Shown here piece after piece: positions 449 to 5,422 of a stretch of 64,000 nucleotides of DNA. The DNA lies in assembly GCF_010119545.1 (NCBI RefSeq), contig NZ_JAAEAA010000017.1, positions 1 to 64,000 on the forward strand, written 5' to 3'. The notes below the pieces were generated by a model. It saw nothing but the letters and a program-made list of their open reading frames with translations. It was not told the origin of the DNA and made no database searches. The position numbers and the translations under genes are program-made. The stretch's first letter is position 1; the number at the start of each line of letters is the position of its first letter. This stretch comes from Pontibacter fetidus. Lineage in GTDB: Bacteria; Bacteroidota; Bacteroidia; Cytophagales; Hymenobacteraceae.

Positions 449-505
449 TCTACGAAAAAAATCGTAAATAAAGTTTCTATTTACGAAAACATTCGTATAA
501 CTTGG
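449..505 (+). promoter_or_regulatory. Paired BlaI-type operators and promoter
   Basis: Two 16-bp palindromes share the form TACGA-N6-TCGTA: 451-466 and 482-497. Their centres are 31 bp apart, about three helical turns, so two dimers would bind the same DNA face. BlaI/MecI/CopY repressors bind paired dyads of this sort next to their own gene. A promoter of the Bacteroidota type can be read as GTTTC near 473-477 and TAACTTGG at 498-505, which puts the second operator in the spacer between the two elements. Transcription would then start near 512, inside the longest possible reading frame, favouring the ATG at 546 for the downstream gene. Confidence 0.75.
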
Positions 506-545
506 TATGCAACATAAACACCCTAACTCTTATCTTTTAAAAACT

Positions 546-935
546 ATGAACCAGAACCAATCTTACAAACCTACCGACGCTGAACTGGAGATCCTCCAGG
601 TGCTGTGGCAAAACGGGCCCTCCACCGTTCGTTTTGTGCACGACATCCTCAGCGAAACCAAAGATGCCGGCTATACTACTACGCTTAAGCTTATGCAGAT
701 TATGGCCGAAAAAGGTATACTGGAAGCTGATAAATCCAGTAAATCGCATGTGTACAGTGCGTTGCTGTCAGAAGAAACTACGCAGCGCCGCCTCCTCGAC
801 CGTTTCCTGGATACGACCTTCCGGGGCTCGGCATCTAAGCTGGTGATGCAGGCGCTTGGCAGCCAGCATACATCTAAAGCAGAAATTGATGAAATAAGAA
901 ACCTATTAGATAAACTGGAAGGAGGCAACTCATGA
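546..935 (+). CDS. BlaI/MecI/CopY family transcriptional repressor
   Basis: A 129-residue winged-helix repressor. The N-terminus (PTDAELEILQVLWQNGPSTV) is the typical start of the family, followed by the recognition-helix stretch GYTTTLKLMQIMAEKGIL and a C-terminal dimerisation helix region with RRLLDRFLDTTFRGSASKLV. An ATG at 507 would add 13 residues, but the predicted transcription start and the family's usual length favour 546. The gene ends four bases into the following protease gene (ATGA overlap), the usual repressor/sensor pairing: the membrane protease is expected to relieve repression by cleaving this protein. It probably controls itself through the dyads at 451-497. The targets beyond this operon are unknown. 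Confidence 0.9.
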   Translation: MNQNQSYKPTDAELEILQVLWQNGPSTVRFVHDILSETKDAGYTTTLKLMQIMAEKGILEADKSSKSHVYSALLSEETTQRRLLDRFLDTTFRGSASKLVMQALGSQHTSKAEIDEIRNLLDKLEGGNS

Positions 936-3001
936 ACCTGATCTCACAACTGATTTCGGAAGGCTTAATAAAAGCCCTCGGCTGGACATTGCTACACTCA
1001 CTGTGGCAGGGTGCGTTAGTGGCTCTTACGCTAGCCCTTTTAATGATATTGTTGCAACGGCACAAAGCCACGCTGCGCTACTACCTGGGTATTGGTGCCA
1101 TGTTGCTGCAGCTACTTTTTTCGGCGGGCACATTTAGTTATTACTATGTTTCAGTAAAAGCTGCTTTACCTGCAACGGCAACATCCGGTACGCTATACTT
1201 CTCTGGGGCTACAACTATAGTTCCGGCTACACAAACCGCCGACTGGTCGCGGCCGCTAACGGTAGCTCAACTATACTTTGAGCAACATCTGCCGCTTATA
1301 GTTACCTTATGGTTGCTGGGCCTGGTGGTAATGGCCTTGCGCTTTATGGGCGGACTGGCTTATATGCAGCGGCTGCGCTACCGTGCTAACCTATTAGGCG
1401 ACAAGTGGCAGGATATAAAACAAACGATAGCTACCCAGATAGGCGTGAAGCAGGCCATAATGCTGGCAGAATCGGCGATGGTAAAAGTGCCGATGGTGAT
1501 TGGTTTTGCGAAGCCGGTGATACTGCTGCCGATTGGGGCGGTTGCAGGTCTGAGCACCGCGCAGGTAGAAGCTATACTTGCCCACGAACTGGCACATATC
1601 CGCCGGAACGATTTCCTGGTAAATCTGCTGCAATCTATAGTTGATATCCTGTTCTTCTATCATCCTGCTATCTGGTGGATGTCGGCGGTGGTGCGCGACG
1701 AACGCGAGAACTGCTGCGATGACATGGCGGTAGCTGTCTGCGGAAACTCGCTGGTATATGCCCGTGCCTTAGCTGCCATTGCTGCTATGCAGTTGCCGCA
1801 GTCGTCTAAGCTTGCTATTGCGCTTGCCGGCCGTAAAGGTTCATTGCTTGGCCGCATTAAACGGTTGGTAGAGCAGCCTGCCTTAAGGCCAACTTTTTCA
1901 GAAGGTTTTATGGCGGCCCTCGTGGTTATAGTTGGGGCGGTATTTTTATCGGCAGGTGCTATGGCCAGCATCAAAGACCAGCAAACCCCCGACCATGAGA
2001 TTCCGGTTAAAACAACGCTGCTTGAGGAAAGCCCAGTTACCAAACTCCCTGAAACGTTAGAAGACGAAAGTTACTCGGCCCACGCTTATACGGTGCAGGA
2101 TACAATGGGGCATAAGCAGGATGTAGTGATCATTAAAAACAAAAAAGGCAAAGTAACCGAGCTGTATGTAAACGGCAAACAGATACCTAAGGAAGATATT
2201 GAAGAATATCATAACGTAATAAACCAGCGCCTGCAGGCTACTAAAACCGCACCAAGAGCCAGCCGCGAAGAAGTGAGGCGACAGATTATAGTTGAGCGTG
2301 AAGCTGTAGCCGAAGCGCGCAGAGATAATGCTGCTAACCGCGAGGAAAGACGCCGCTACAGAGTGGATGTAGACAGGGATGGATTAGCTATACCTCCGAT
2401 GCCACCAATGCCGCCAATGCCTCCTATGGCACCAATGCCACCTATGCATGCCGTACCTCCGGTTCCGCCTGCACCCCCTATTGCACCCCTCGACCTGGAT
2501 GGTAAAAACAAAGAAGAAGCTAAAAAACAGCAGAAAGCCTATGAGCAGGCCATGAAGGAGTATGATAAAGAAATGCAGAAATTTGAGACAGAACTGAAAG
2601 CCTATGAAAAGAAAGTAGAGGCCAGCGCTGCCAAACGCGTGGAGGTGGATGTACGCAGAGAGCAAGTGCACCGCGAAGATGCTACCCGCCGCCATGCCGA
2701 GGCCATGGAGCGCCACAAGCTAAGCATGAAACGTCACGACGAAAGTATGAAGCGGCACGAAGAAATGTCGGCTGTGCTGGATAACGTAAATGCTGAGCTG
2801 ATAAAAGACGGACTCCTGAAAAAGAATGCAGACAAAGTAGACTTTAAAATAGACAACACCGGCCTGTACATTGATGGCAAAAAGCAGCCGCAGCAAGTAT
2901 ACACCAAATACCGCAACCTGCTGAAAACAAAAGACGGCAAGCCGATGAACTATACGTACAAAAAAGACGGTACCAACCGGCAGATCATGCTAAACGACTA
3001 A
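932..3001 (+). CDS. BlaR1-like M56 family membrane metallopeptidase with atypical sensor region
   Basis: A 689-residue M56 peptidase. Membrane segments are visible at about 13-40, 50-75, 118-138 and 325-346; the zinc site HELAH is at 218-222 and is followed by ENCCDD at about 259-264, the usual region of the third ligand. In this family it signals across the membrane and triggers loss of the BlaI-type repressor encoded just upstream, with which it overlaps by four bases. The region after the last membrane segment is not a penicillin-binding sensor. It has a short globular piece, a Pro/Met-rich stretch (about 488-520, repeats of PPM), a charged coiled coil with repeated His-Lys-Arg-Met units (about 525-620) and a small C-terminal domain. 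The signal sensed is therefore probably not a beta-lactam. A hairpin terminator follows the stop codon. Confidence 0.88.
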   Translation: MNLISQLISEGLIKALGWTLLHSLWQGALVALTLALLMILLQRHKATLRYYLGIGAMLLQLLFSAGTFSYYYVSVKAALPATATSGTLYFSGATTIVPATQTADWSRPLTVAQLYFEQHLPLIVTLWLLGLVVMALRFMGGLAYMQRLRYRANLLGDKWQDIKQTIATQIGVKQAIMLAESAMVKVPMVIGFAKPVILLPIGAVAGLSTAQVEAILAHELAHIRRNDFLVNLLQSIVDILFFYHPAIWWMSAVVRDERENCCDDMAVAVCGNSLVYARALAAIAAMQLPQSSKLAIALAGRKGSLLGRIKRLVEQPALRPTFSEGFMAALVVIVGAVFLSAGAMASIKDQQTPDHEIPVKTTLLEESPVTKLPETLEDESYSAHAYTVQDTMGHKQDVVIIKNKKGKVTELYVNGKQIPKEDIEEYHNVINQRLQATKTAPRASREEVRRQIIVEREAVAEARRDNAANREERRRYRVDVDRDGLAIPPMPPMPPMPPMAPMPPMHAVPPVPPAPPIAPLDLDGKNKEEAKKQQKAYEQAMKEYDKEMQKFETELKAYEKKVEASAAKRVEVDVRREQVHREDATRRHAEAMERHKLSMKRHDESMKRHEEMSAVLDNVNAELIKDGLLKKNADKVDFKIDNTGLYIDGKKQPQQVYTKYRNLLKTKDGKPMNYTYKKDGTNRQIMLND

Positions 3002-3032
3002 CTATAAACCAGGCTAACACGCTTATTTCCCG

Positions 3033-3070
3033 GAGAAGGACCCCCAGTTGGTGGTCCTTCTCTGATTTTA
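3033..3070 (+). terminator. Hairpin terminator of the blaI/blaR1-like operon
   Basis: A 10-bp perfect stem (GAGAAGGACC at 3033-3042, GGTCCTTCTC at 3053-3062) with a short loop is followed by a T-rich run. It sits 32 bases after the protease stop codon. The rest of the gap to 3316 shows no gene; it is AT-rich and has scattered CTATA words, ending with AACTATACTT at 3296-3305 just before the next start codon. Confidence 0.75.
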
Positions 3071-3316: not shown

Positions 3317-5422
3317 ATGAATAAACTCTACAACAGTTGCCTGGTAGCGCTTACGCCTGCGCGTTTCAGGGTATGGCTGCTTTTCTTCAGCTTGTTTTTA
3401 ACGCAAACGCTTTTCGCCAGCGATAATGTACACATGATCCCGGTTAGCCTGCAGGAACGCGTGCAGGCCGCAGATATGGTAGTTGAAGGCGAAGTGATCT
3501 CCAAAAAATCTTTCTGGGATGCCTCCCGCGCCCGGATCTATACTTCCAATATCGTTAAAGTATACAAGGTTTTTAAAGGCACGCTGCAACCAGAGCAACT
3601 GGAGGTAATAACAGAAGGCGGCACTGTTGGCCTCGACAAACATGTGTATACTTCGGTATTATCGTTAAGCGTGGGGCAGCAGGGCATGTTTTTTCTGCAG
3701 CGCCAGCAACTACTGGCAACTACACCGGGCCGCACCAACTATAGCTCACGCCCTTATGCCGCCGAGCAGGGTTTTATCAGGTATAATGTGCGTACCCAAA
3801 CCGCAAAAAGCGTATTCGACAGCTATGCTTCTGTGGAGCAGGTATACCAGGCGGTAACTAAAACAACAGGCACCAACTATAGAACGATTAATACAAATCA
3901 GAAACTGCTTGTAAAACCGCAGCAGCAAAACCAGCGCAGTGCAGCTATACCTGTTGTTACTTCGTTTAGCCCCCGCGAGGCAAGTGCTGGTACCAAAACG
4001 GTACTAACTATAAATGGCAGCGGCTTCGGTAGTTCGCGCGGCACAGGCTCGGTTGCCTTCCGGAACGCAGACGACGGTGGCAAAACCTTTACCACCGCTC
4101 CTGTTGATGCCTACCTTTCCTGGACCAATACCCAGATAAAAATGTACATCCCGTCGGCCGGGTCAGATGACGGAACAGCCGGCACCGGCGAACTGAAAAT
4201 AACTGCCGCCGACGGCACTATAGTTACCACTGTTGATAAGATCACGATACCATTTGCTTACAGCAATATTTACAACGAGAACAAGTCGTACCAGCCAAGG
4301 CTGATAGACGATGACGGCGAAGGCGGGTATACCATCCGGTTTGCGCCCAGCATGCAGGGTCGGCCTAGTGCCCAGGAGGGTTTCAGGAGGGCCATGAACA
4401 GCTGGATCTGTACCACCAACGTGAACTGGAAGATAGGCGCGCCTATTACCAAAGAAAGCAGCACTGCCGATGGCGAAACCATTATCCGGTTTGCACCGGG
4501 CTCTGATGTGGGGGCTGGCGTGCTGGCGCGTACCCTTAGCCAGTACCGCGGCTGCACCAATACTGACACAGGCCAGACCGAGTGGTGGCTGTCGGAGTTT
4601 GATATGGAAATAAACAGCAACATAAACTGGCAGTATGGTCCAGGTGGTCCGGGCCCGAACCAGTTCGACTTTGAGACGGTAATGTTGCACGAGTTAGGAC
4701 ATGCGCACCAGTTGGGGCACGTAATTTTGCCAAATGAGCCGGCCATTATGGCTTATTCCCTGGAGTATACAAGAGCTATAAGAGGCCTGAGCCCGGCAGA
4801 CATAGAAGGCGGAAGATTTATAATAGCCCGCAGCCAGGAACCTAACTTCTGCGATAAAGATCCGATGGTGCCTAAAACAGACAGGGCATGCGAAATAATC
4901 GAGCTTAAAGCAGACTATACGACCGAAGGCGATGTTTTAGTAACCTGGAATCCAACCTCCGAAGCAAACATCAGCCGTTACATAATAGAGCGGAGCGCGA
5001 ACGGGAAAAACTTTGAAGACATTGGGACAGTTGCAGCATCCGAAGCCAACTCGTTTTTAGACACAGACCCGCTGCAAACATTTGCCACGTACAGGCTGCG
5101 CGTAGTTTACACCGATAACCAGGAGCGTTACTCTGATTTGGCGGTGGTCATAAACCCTGCCATGCTGTATAAGTTTGAGGTTTCGCCTAACCCTGTTGGT
5201 GCCGAAGAGAAGTTCAATATCCTGTTTCTGGTTAACGGCAACACTCCGGTGCAACTATACTTATATGACATGACGGGTAAAGTTGTCCGCAGTTCTAAGG
5301 TTACGTTTACCGATGCTAACATGCCGCTAGAGTTTGACTTGCAAGGGCTGGCCCCGGGCATTTACGTACTTAAATGGAGTTCGGCAAAAAGCAGTGGTAC
5401 CACAAAAATAATGAAACTATAG
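3317..5422 (+). CDS. Secreted matrixin-like zinc metalloprotease with IPT/TIG domain and type IX sorting domain
   Basis: A 701-residue exported protein. Order of parts: signal peptide (about 1-35, ending LFAS), an N-terminal domain, an IPT/TIG immunoglobulin-like domain (about 213-315), a metzincin-like catalytic domain, a fibronectin-III-like segment (about 535-615, SRYIIERSANGKNFEDIG), and a type A C-terminal sorting domain (about 618-701, starting VSPNPVG and ending GIYVLKW...IMKL) used for export by the type IX system. The zinc site at 458-468 reads HELGHAHQLGH: all three histidines and the glutamate are in place, but the glycine usual at position 8 of HExxHxxGxxH is Gln, with Gly two places later. 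IMAYS downstream fits the Met-turn. It is monocistronic, with its own terminator. Confidence 0.85.
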   Translation: MNKLYNSCLVALTPARFRVWLLFFSLFLTQTLFASDNVHMIPVSLQERVQAADMVVEGEVISKKSFWDASRARIYTSNIVKVYKVFKGTLQPEQLEVITEGGTVGLDKHVYTSVLSLSVGQQGMFFLQRQQLLATTPGRTNYSSRPYAAEQGFIRYNVRTQTAKSVFDSYASVEQVYQAVTKTTGTNYRTINTNQKLLVKPQQQNQRSAAIPVVTSFSPREASAGTKTVLTINGSGFGSSRGTGSVAFRNADDGGKTFTTAPVDAYLSWTNTQIKMYIPSAGSDDGTAGTGELKITAADGTIVTTVDKITIPFAYSNIYNENKSYQPRLIDDDGEGGYTIRFAPSMQGRPSAQEGFRRAMNSWICTTNVNWKIGAPITKESSTADGETIIRFAPGSDVGAGVLARTLSQYRGCTNTDTGQTEWWLSEFDMEINSNINWQYGPGGPGPNQFDFETVMLHELGHAHQLGHVILPNEPAIMAYSLEYTRAIRGLSPADIEGGRFIIARSQEPNFCDKDPMVPKTDRACEIIELKADYTTEGDVLVTWNPTSEANISRYIIERSANGKNFEDIGTVAASEANSFLDTDPLQTFATYRLRVVYTDNQERYSDLAVVINPAMLYKFEVSPNPVGAEEKFNILFLVNGNTPVQLYLYDMTGKVVRSSKVTFTDANMPLEFDLQGLAPGIYVLKWSSAKSSGTTKIMKL

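Follow-up and report, generated by a model that had tools for sequence, protein, structure and literature searches.

A BlaI/M56 operon in Pontibacter fetidus with a candidate non-beta-lactam envelope sensor, fused to the protease here and possibly split from it elsewhere in Bacteroidota

What might a BlaR1-like protease respond to when it lacks the part that would read a beta-lactam? The annotation BlaR1 is often taken to mean a sensor for antibiotic resistance, and M56 proteins without a penicillin-binding protein (PBP) domain are already known as such. One protein without a beta-lactam-reading part is encoded near the start of the DNA stretch that we analyzed, 64,000 nucleotides from Pontibacter fetidus (hereafter the window).

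The gene for this membrane protease (932..3001, + strand; 689 aa, assigned from its open reading frame, Pfam and alignment) has a non-beta-lactam outer part and overlaps by four bases a BlaI/MecI-type repressor gene (507..935, + strand). The repressor matches the Penicillinase_R profile (PF03965, 94.4 bits) and, among solved structures, MecI (E 9.5e-11) and BlaI (4e-6), and a start at 546 (129 aa) fits the starts of its relatives better than one at 507. A terminator-like hairpin follows the operon (3031..3064, + strand; -24.7 kcal/mol, z -3.67) and, since it lies 3′ of the M56 stop codon, the transcription unit probably consists of the repressor and M56 genes alone. The M56 protein found a match at E<1e-50 in 35/50 genus genomes, its own genome counted, the gene being cut by a contig end in one of the 35 (G029). 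In one relative (L009, G028:C1:3522013-3524117), the M56 gene lies in two frames, split within the Pro-rich stretch described below, perhaps through repeat slippage. The genome of the window carries a second BlaI-M56 pair (L047 3356-5391, G000:C16), which has no exact TACGA palindromes and whose M56 outer part, judged by eye, seems unrelated. The next gene in the window (3317-5422) codes for a secreted protein with an IPT/TIG domain and a type IX sorting tail; it also has a matrixin-like stretch scoring below the cut-off.

The original prediction of an intact M56 core was borne out. Peptidase_M56 (PF05569) covers residues 26-310 (1007..1861, + strand) and scores 107.6 bits (cut-off 31); both the HELAH motif (residues 218-222; 1583..1597, + strand) and E259 (1706-1708, + strand), the third zinc ligand by position, are kept throughout, H218, E219, H222 and E259 being invariant in 33/33 aligned proteins. 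The ligand roles are taken from Staphylococcus aureus BlaR1, in which, according to the accessible text of the structural paper (PMC9834060), zinc is held by H201, H205 and E242; the spacing of 37 residues from the second His to E259 is the same in both proteins. The core fold aligned with five BlaR1 cryo-EM entries (VIA-align Z 10.3-12.0, 215-242 residues, rmsd 4.5-7.3), the next row having a Z of 5.6. NCBIfam blaR1_generic matched residues 102-314 only, within the core, at 95.3 bits, below its equivalog cut-off of 400. As for the sequence sets, A1 leaves out L009 (the split gene) and L038-L040 and L043-L045 (unrelated outer parts), A2 leaves out L042 and seven near-duplicates, and A4 leaves out 19 of the 72 listed sequences.

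Sequence searches and the predicted structure likewise agreed with the claim that this protease has no recognisable beta-lactam-binding domain. No transpeptidase or beta-lactamase family was matched by Pfam in the whole 689-aa protein at E<=1, and no penicillin-binding family appeared for 53 outer parts among 25 of the 29 families listed (Pfam, E<=0.01). Those 29 families were scattered, mostly of coiled-coil types and with at most three members each, and the outer part of the window protein matched none (0 families at E<=0.01). An STxK acylation motif was present in just 1/29 genus outer parts, and the single SxxK of the window protein's outer part, at position 565, falls in a helix. A PBP fold was also looked for by Pfam, NCBIfam, Foldseek and VIA, and the rows naming such folds were at chance level: BEL-1 beta-lactamase in Foldseek (E 1.8-2.3, probability 0.09-0.12, TM 0.08-0.09, 41-51 columns), SHV-1 against the full-length model (Foldseek E 1.9, probability 0.04) and PBP3 7onk in VIA (Z 2.7, 38 residues). 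Structure prediction gave the outer part two small modules and a long helix, not a PBP fold. Judging from sequence and models, beta-lactams are not read by this protein via acylation of a PBP domain, because no such domain was found.

The outer part had been described as a PPM-repeat stretch at about residues 488-520 and a His/Met-bearing coiled coil. Both were found, the PPM stretch at 487-519, but the description had missed folded modules at 382-439 and 619-688. In sequence order, the N-module (residues 382-439; 2075..2248, + strand), defined by profile and model, consists of strands and then a helix and carries LYVNGK..IP. The Pro-rich stretch (IPPMPPMPPMPPMAPMPPMHAVPPVPPAPPIAP; 2390..2488, + strand), recognized in sequence and model, lies in low-confidence coil. 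It is followed by an uninterrupted helix with His/Met heptads, predicted to run for 102 residues (524-625; 2501..2806, + strand) and placed at 525-625 (101 residues) by a second AlphaFold model. The C-module (residues about 619-668; 2786..2935, + strand), with ELIKDGLL...LYIDGKKQP..KY, was defined by profile matches and model, and a beta hairpin modeled by AlphaFold closes the protein (residues 673-688; 2948..2995, + strand). The two models agree on the N-module strands (381-413) and helix (420/424-439), on a next helix (445-475/476) leading into the Pro-rich coil, on C-module strands near 635-641 and 644-647 with a helix at 654-663, and on the last hairpin. Mean pLDDT and pTM were 67.3 and 0.47 for the full-length model and 83.9 and 0.42 for the outer-part model; with these last two values, the pieces of the outer part can be trusted but their mutual arrangement is not fixed. 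At 1.5 A per residue, the calculated reach of the helix is about 15 nm, a length that would suit a reach to the peptidoglycan region or beyond.

The N- and C-modules have LY[VI][ND]GK..P......Y in common and look like an old duplication: hhalign related them with a probability of 95.3 (E 2.3e-8, a single comparison over 23 columns), and a C-module profile search of the own genome picked up the N-module at E 0.037. Foldseek returned no match at E<=0.001 for either the full-length or the outer-part model. The best structural rows for the C-module were EsaG (Z 5.3-5.5, 82 residues, rmsd 3.6-3.7) and the DUF600 protein BH3703 (Z 3.9), scores below the safe level of the tool, so that no fold is claimed.

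Two operator-like palindromes lie before the repressor gene, TACGAAAAAAATCGTA (451..466) and, 31 bases after it, TACGAAAACATTCGTA (482..497). Such a TACGAN6TCGTA pair precedes blaI in 30/30 genus loci (L006-L035), with a spacing of 29-32; more distant loci have two or three palindromes (L036-L042, n=7) or one (L043-L045, n=3). The genome contains three exact palindromes, where 4.4 would be expected from base composition, so their number proves nothing alone, and it is position and conservation that speak for them as putative repressor sites. One-mismatch palindromes were left unused (56 in the genome vs 161 for the reversed control). In most of the genus genomes listed, the blaI palindromes are the sole ones at a gene start. 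A requirement for paired inverted repeats is also described for two BlaI proteins of Clostridium thermocellum in the accessible text of PMC8457756. Three loci of Saprospiraceae type (L038 7949-11033, L039 and L040) share the M56 core and the TACGA palindromes but have outer repeats that look ankyrin-like by eye.

The third exact palindrome of the genome is located at L046 5210-5225, 274 bases upstream of a gene for a TonB-type receptor (OMP_b-brl_3). It is kept in 5/7 of the closest orthologues (G000, G017, G028, G013 and G049), with the ten arm bases intact and the center and flanks varying, in upstream DNA that is otherwise 53-72% identical. The two of the seven that lack it (G038 and G009) have no operon, and their receptors are 78% identical. 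In total, the palindrome is absent from 25/30 receptor loci, including those of operon-bearing genomes such as G032 and G031, with one-mismatch versions in G007, G010 and G043. A genus-wide rule was therefore rejected (5/30 loci only); apart from the seven closest orthologues, the palindrome is missing at all 23 remaining loci, so that the predicted receptor target is limited to a close group. None of the three exact genome palindromes lies at a beta-lactamase or PBP gene. The receptor promoter (L046 about 4990-5150) also shows a conserved direct repeat, TTTCAGAC, with a spacing of about 22 bases, as well as a TGGCAC-N5-TTG element resembling a sigma-54 promoter; element and repeat are largely kept in seven aligned genomes.

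The C-module is found well beyond this protease. Its profile has a match in 29/296 phylum genomes and 25/395 class genomes (the two sets overlap), and its carriers are M56 proteins, proteins adjacent to ECF sigma factors, two H+-pyrophosphatases and stand-alone proteins. All six C-module proteins with one likely membrane span, as judged by eye (L171-L176), directly adjoin an ECF sigma gene, called from sigma-70 Pfam matches in 5/5 scanned and by eye for L173. In the two H+-pyrophosphatases (L186 1932-4349 and L188 1664-4099; Pfam on L186), it forms the C-terminal tail. In two other loci, a gene that looks H+-pyrophosphatase-like by eye is found upstream of a blaI-M56 pair, immediately so in L226 and with one gene in between in L229. 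A tandem pair of C-modules occurs in the M56 proteins of L151 (3850-6849) and L152 (2238-4880). A palindrome lies near the operon in 10/12 fetched M56 loci whose protein has the C-module, the exceptions being L184 and L187. One genome (G302) combines an M56 protein with C-module but without palindrome and a stand-alone C-module protein.

The stand-alone proteins have 256-356 aa and, by eye, an N-terminal anchor or a lipoprotein-like start; 12 of 13 short C-module ORFs were retained, G339 being left out for its partial match (E 9.8e-4). One or two exact palindromes lie about 20-50 bases before 5/12 of the stand-alone genes (L145, L146, L147, L148 and L150; for L147 an internal Met serves as the start). 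Of the 12 genomes searched, exactly these five have a strong BlaI (best E <=2e-26), and in every one of them an M56 gene comes after a blaI gene that has a palindrome of its own. G100 contains just two exact palindromes in its whole genome, one at blaI and one at the stand-alone gene. The other seven genomes have no palindrome; five are without BlaI and two have weak matches near 1e-5, which pass the Pfam cut-off (27.4-27.7 vs 22.6 bits), so that "no BlaI" is a judgement for these two. This co-occurrence (5/5 vs 0/7) gives a Fisher p of 0.0013, which is optimistic because four of the five genomes belong to one family. None of the 29 ORFs in the blaI-M56 regions of the five genomes matched the C-module profile. 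In such genomes, the stand-alone module protein seems to share its repressor with the M56 gene. We tentatively put at a little under an even chance a broader reading, in which the KDGLI...VNGKKQP..KY module reads the envelope across the phylum Bacteroidota as a unit not described before. It would be placed on at least two unrelated signaling machines (M56/BlaI and ECF sigma/anti-sigma) and, in addition, would form a split receptor, with a separate periplasmic protein controlled by the very BlaI whose M56 partner has lost the module or has always been without it.

For the window operon, we lean, by a modest degree of confidence, towards a BlaI/M56 switch with a previously unrecognised non-beta-lactam envelope sensor that would be fused here and split elsewhere. 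Beside the gene order, catalytic residues, operator conservation, lack of a PBP match, recurrence of the module and palindrome co-occurrence in trans, which were all observed, we infer repression, cleavage, the orientation of the arm, and the signal with its sign. A repressor dimer would hold its own operon shut at the two palindromes and, in the close group of species, might also bind upstream of the one receptor gene. The M56 protein would be an inner-membrane protein whose zinc site faces the cytoplasm and whose periplasmic arm has the N-module near the membrane, followed by the flexible Pro-rich stretch, the helix of about 100 residues and, at the far end, the C-module. The protease would be turned on by some envelope change or when the modules bind a partner protein, and would then cleave the repressor and open the regulon. 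In the genus of the window the arm belongs to the protease, and in others the module is found on a separate protein. As the apparently co-regulated stand-alone proteins have the same module, we favor as the input either a partner protein or an envelope signal that is shared.

Other readings of the outer part have to be weighed against this one. A metal sensor, with copper or some other metal bound by the PPM repeats and the His/Met heptads of the helix, would fit the periodic His (588, 595, 602 and 609) and Met (592, 599 and 606) of the window protein, which recur every seven residues in the helix and are present in its own subgroup. However, these His positions are kept as His in only 13, 12, 16 and 15 of 29 genus sequences, being otherwise mainly Arg, and the Met positions as Met in 7, 8 and 7; no Cys was found in 33 outer parts, the Pro-rich stretch is kept in relatives with its Met often V, L or A, and neither the operon nor the third palindrome comes with a metal gene. 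The suggestion that the coiled coil senses metal is thus weakened and was rejected as a family property, and we regard such a sensor as very improbable, though one may still exist in the subgroup of the window protein. Somewhat less remote, though still doubtful, is a sensor of beta-lactam or cell-wall damage that needs no PBP domain, peptidoglycan fragments that act on BlaI being one possible route: the BlaI of Bacillus licheniformis can respond to a peptidoglycan dipeptide, as stated in the accessible text of PMC3305447, and the state of the wall could be reported by a long periplasmic arm. The gene content at the three exact palindromes, with neither beta-lactamase nor PBP, and the near absence of STxK from the genus outer parts speak against it.

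We give the same low weight to the idea that the outer part is a mere spacer or anchor, its module having no sensing role and the M56 protein being constitutive or driven by its transmembrane part. The low-complexity composition, Pro-rich and then a charged helix, and the free variation of the outer part among fetched relatives, as with the ankyrin repeats of L038-L040, would suit a spacer; conservation of the C-module across the phylum and its recurrence on unrelated carriers would not. An unlikely alternative, though one with more in its favor, is that the C-module protein is the output: cleavage of BlaI would lead to a stand-alone protein that shields or supports the envelope and that binds the M56 module or coiled coil to switch M56 off in a negative feedback, with the two having become fused in this genus. 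This would agree with the BlaI-type palindromes directly before five of the 12 stand-alone genes, with the kinship of the N- and C-modules, which makes a like-with-like contact possible, and with the lipoprotein-like or membrane anchor at the start of several stand-alone proteins. Proteins encoded beside ECF sigma factors usually have an input role, however, and the module is joined to such proteins as well.

If the module is a sensor, as in the switch that we favor, one small domain would, in Bacteroidota, link the control of sigma factors with the proteolysis of repressors. The predicted target list is short (the repressor operon, the receptor and the stand-alone protein), which makes the signal directly testable. 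A literature search, with most subscription journals and preprints outside its scope, found nothing on the C-module, on its sharing between M56 and ECF systems or on the cis/trans relation under one kind of operator, nor on BlaI with TonB receptors in Bacteroidetes.

Compared with known systems, the operon resembles BlaR1/MecR1-BlaI/MecI of S. aureus (8EXP-8EXT; PMC9834060, accessible text) in its HEXXH...E M56 core, its adjacent BlaI-family repressor gene and its upstream palindromes. It differs from that system in having modules and a long helix in place of a penicillin-binding sensor, in its TACGA half-site, and in a third palindrome that is found at a TonB-type receptor and not at a beta-lactamase. 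Very small autoregulated regulons, predicted here, are shared with BlaI_0696 and BlaI_1845 of C. thermocellum, whose target promoters have paired inverted repeats for four protomers; the DNA motif is different, and the C. thermocellum pair is tied to a beta-lactam response by annotation, as far as the accessible text of the report goes (PMC8457756). TolA and other long periplasmic helix proteins have a similar long charged helix, and NCBIfam TolA gave a weak match to residues 511-604 (E 0.24); unlike in TolA, no TolA C-terminal domain was seen, and the match reflects coiled-coil composition only. Finally, the ECF sigma/anti-sigma pairs of Bacteroidota (L171-L176) include sigma-adjacent membrane proteins, of an anti-sigma role inferred from position, which end in the same C-module; while their transducer is a sigma factor, here it would be a protease and its repressor.
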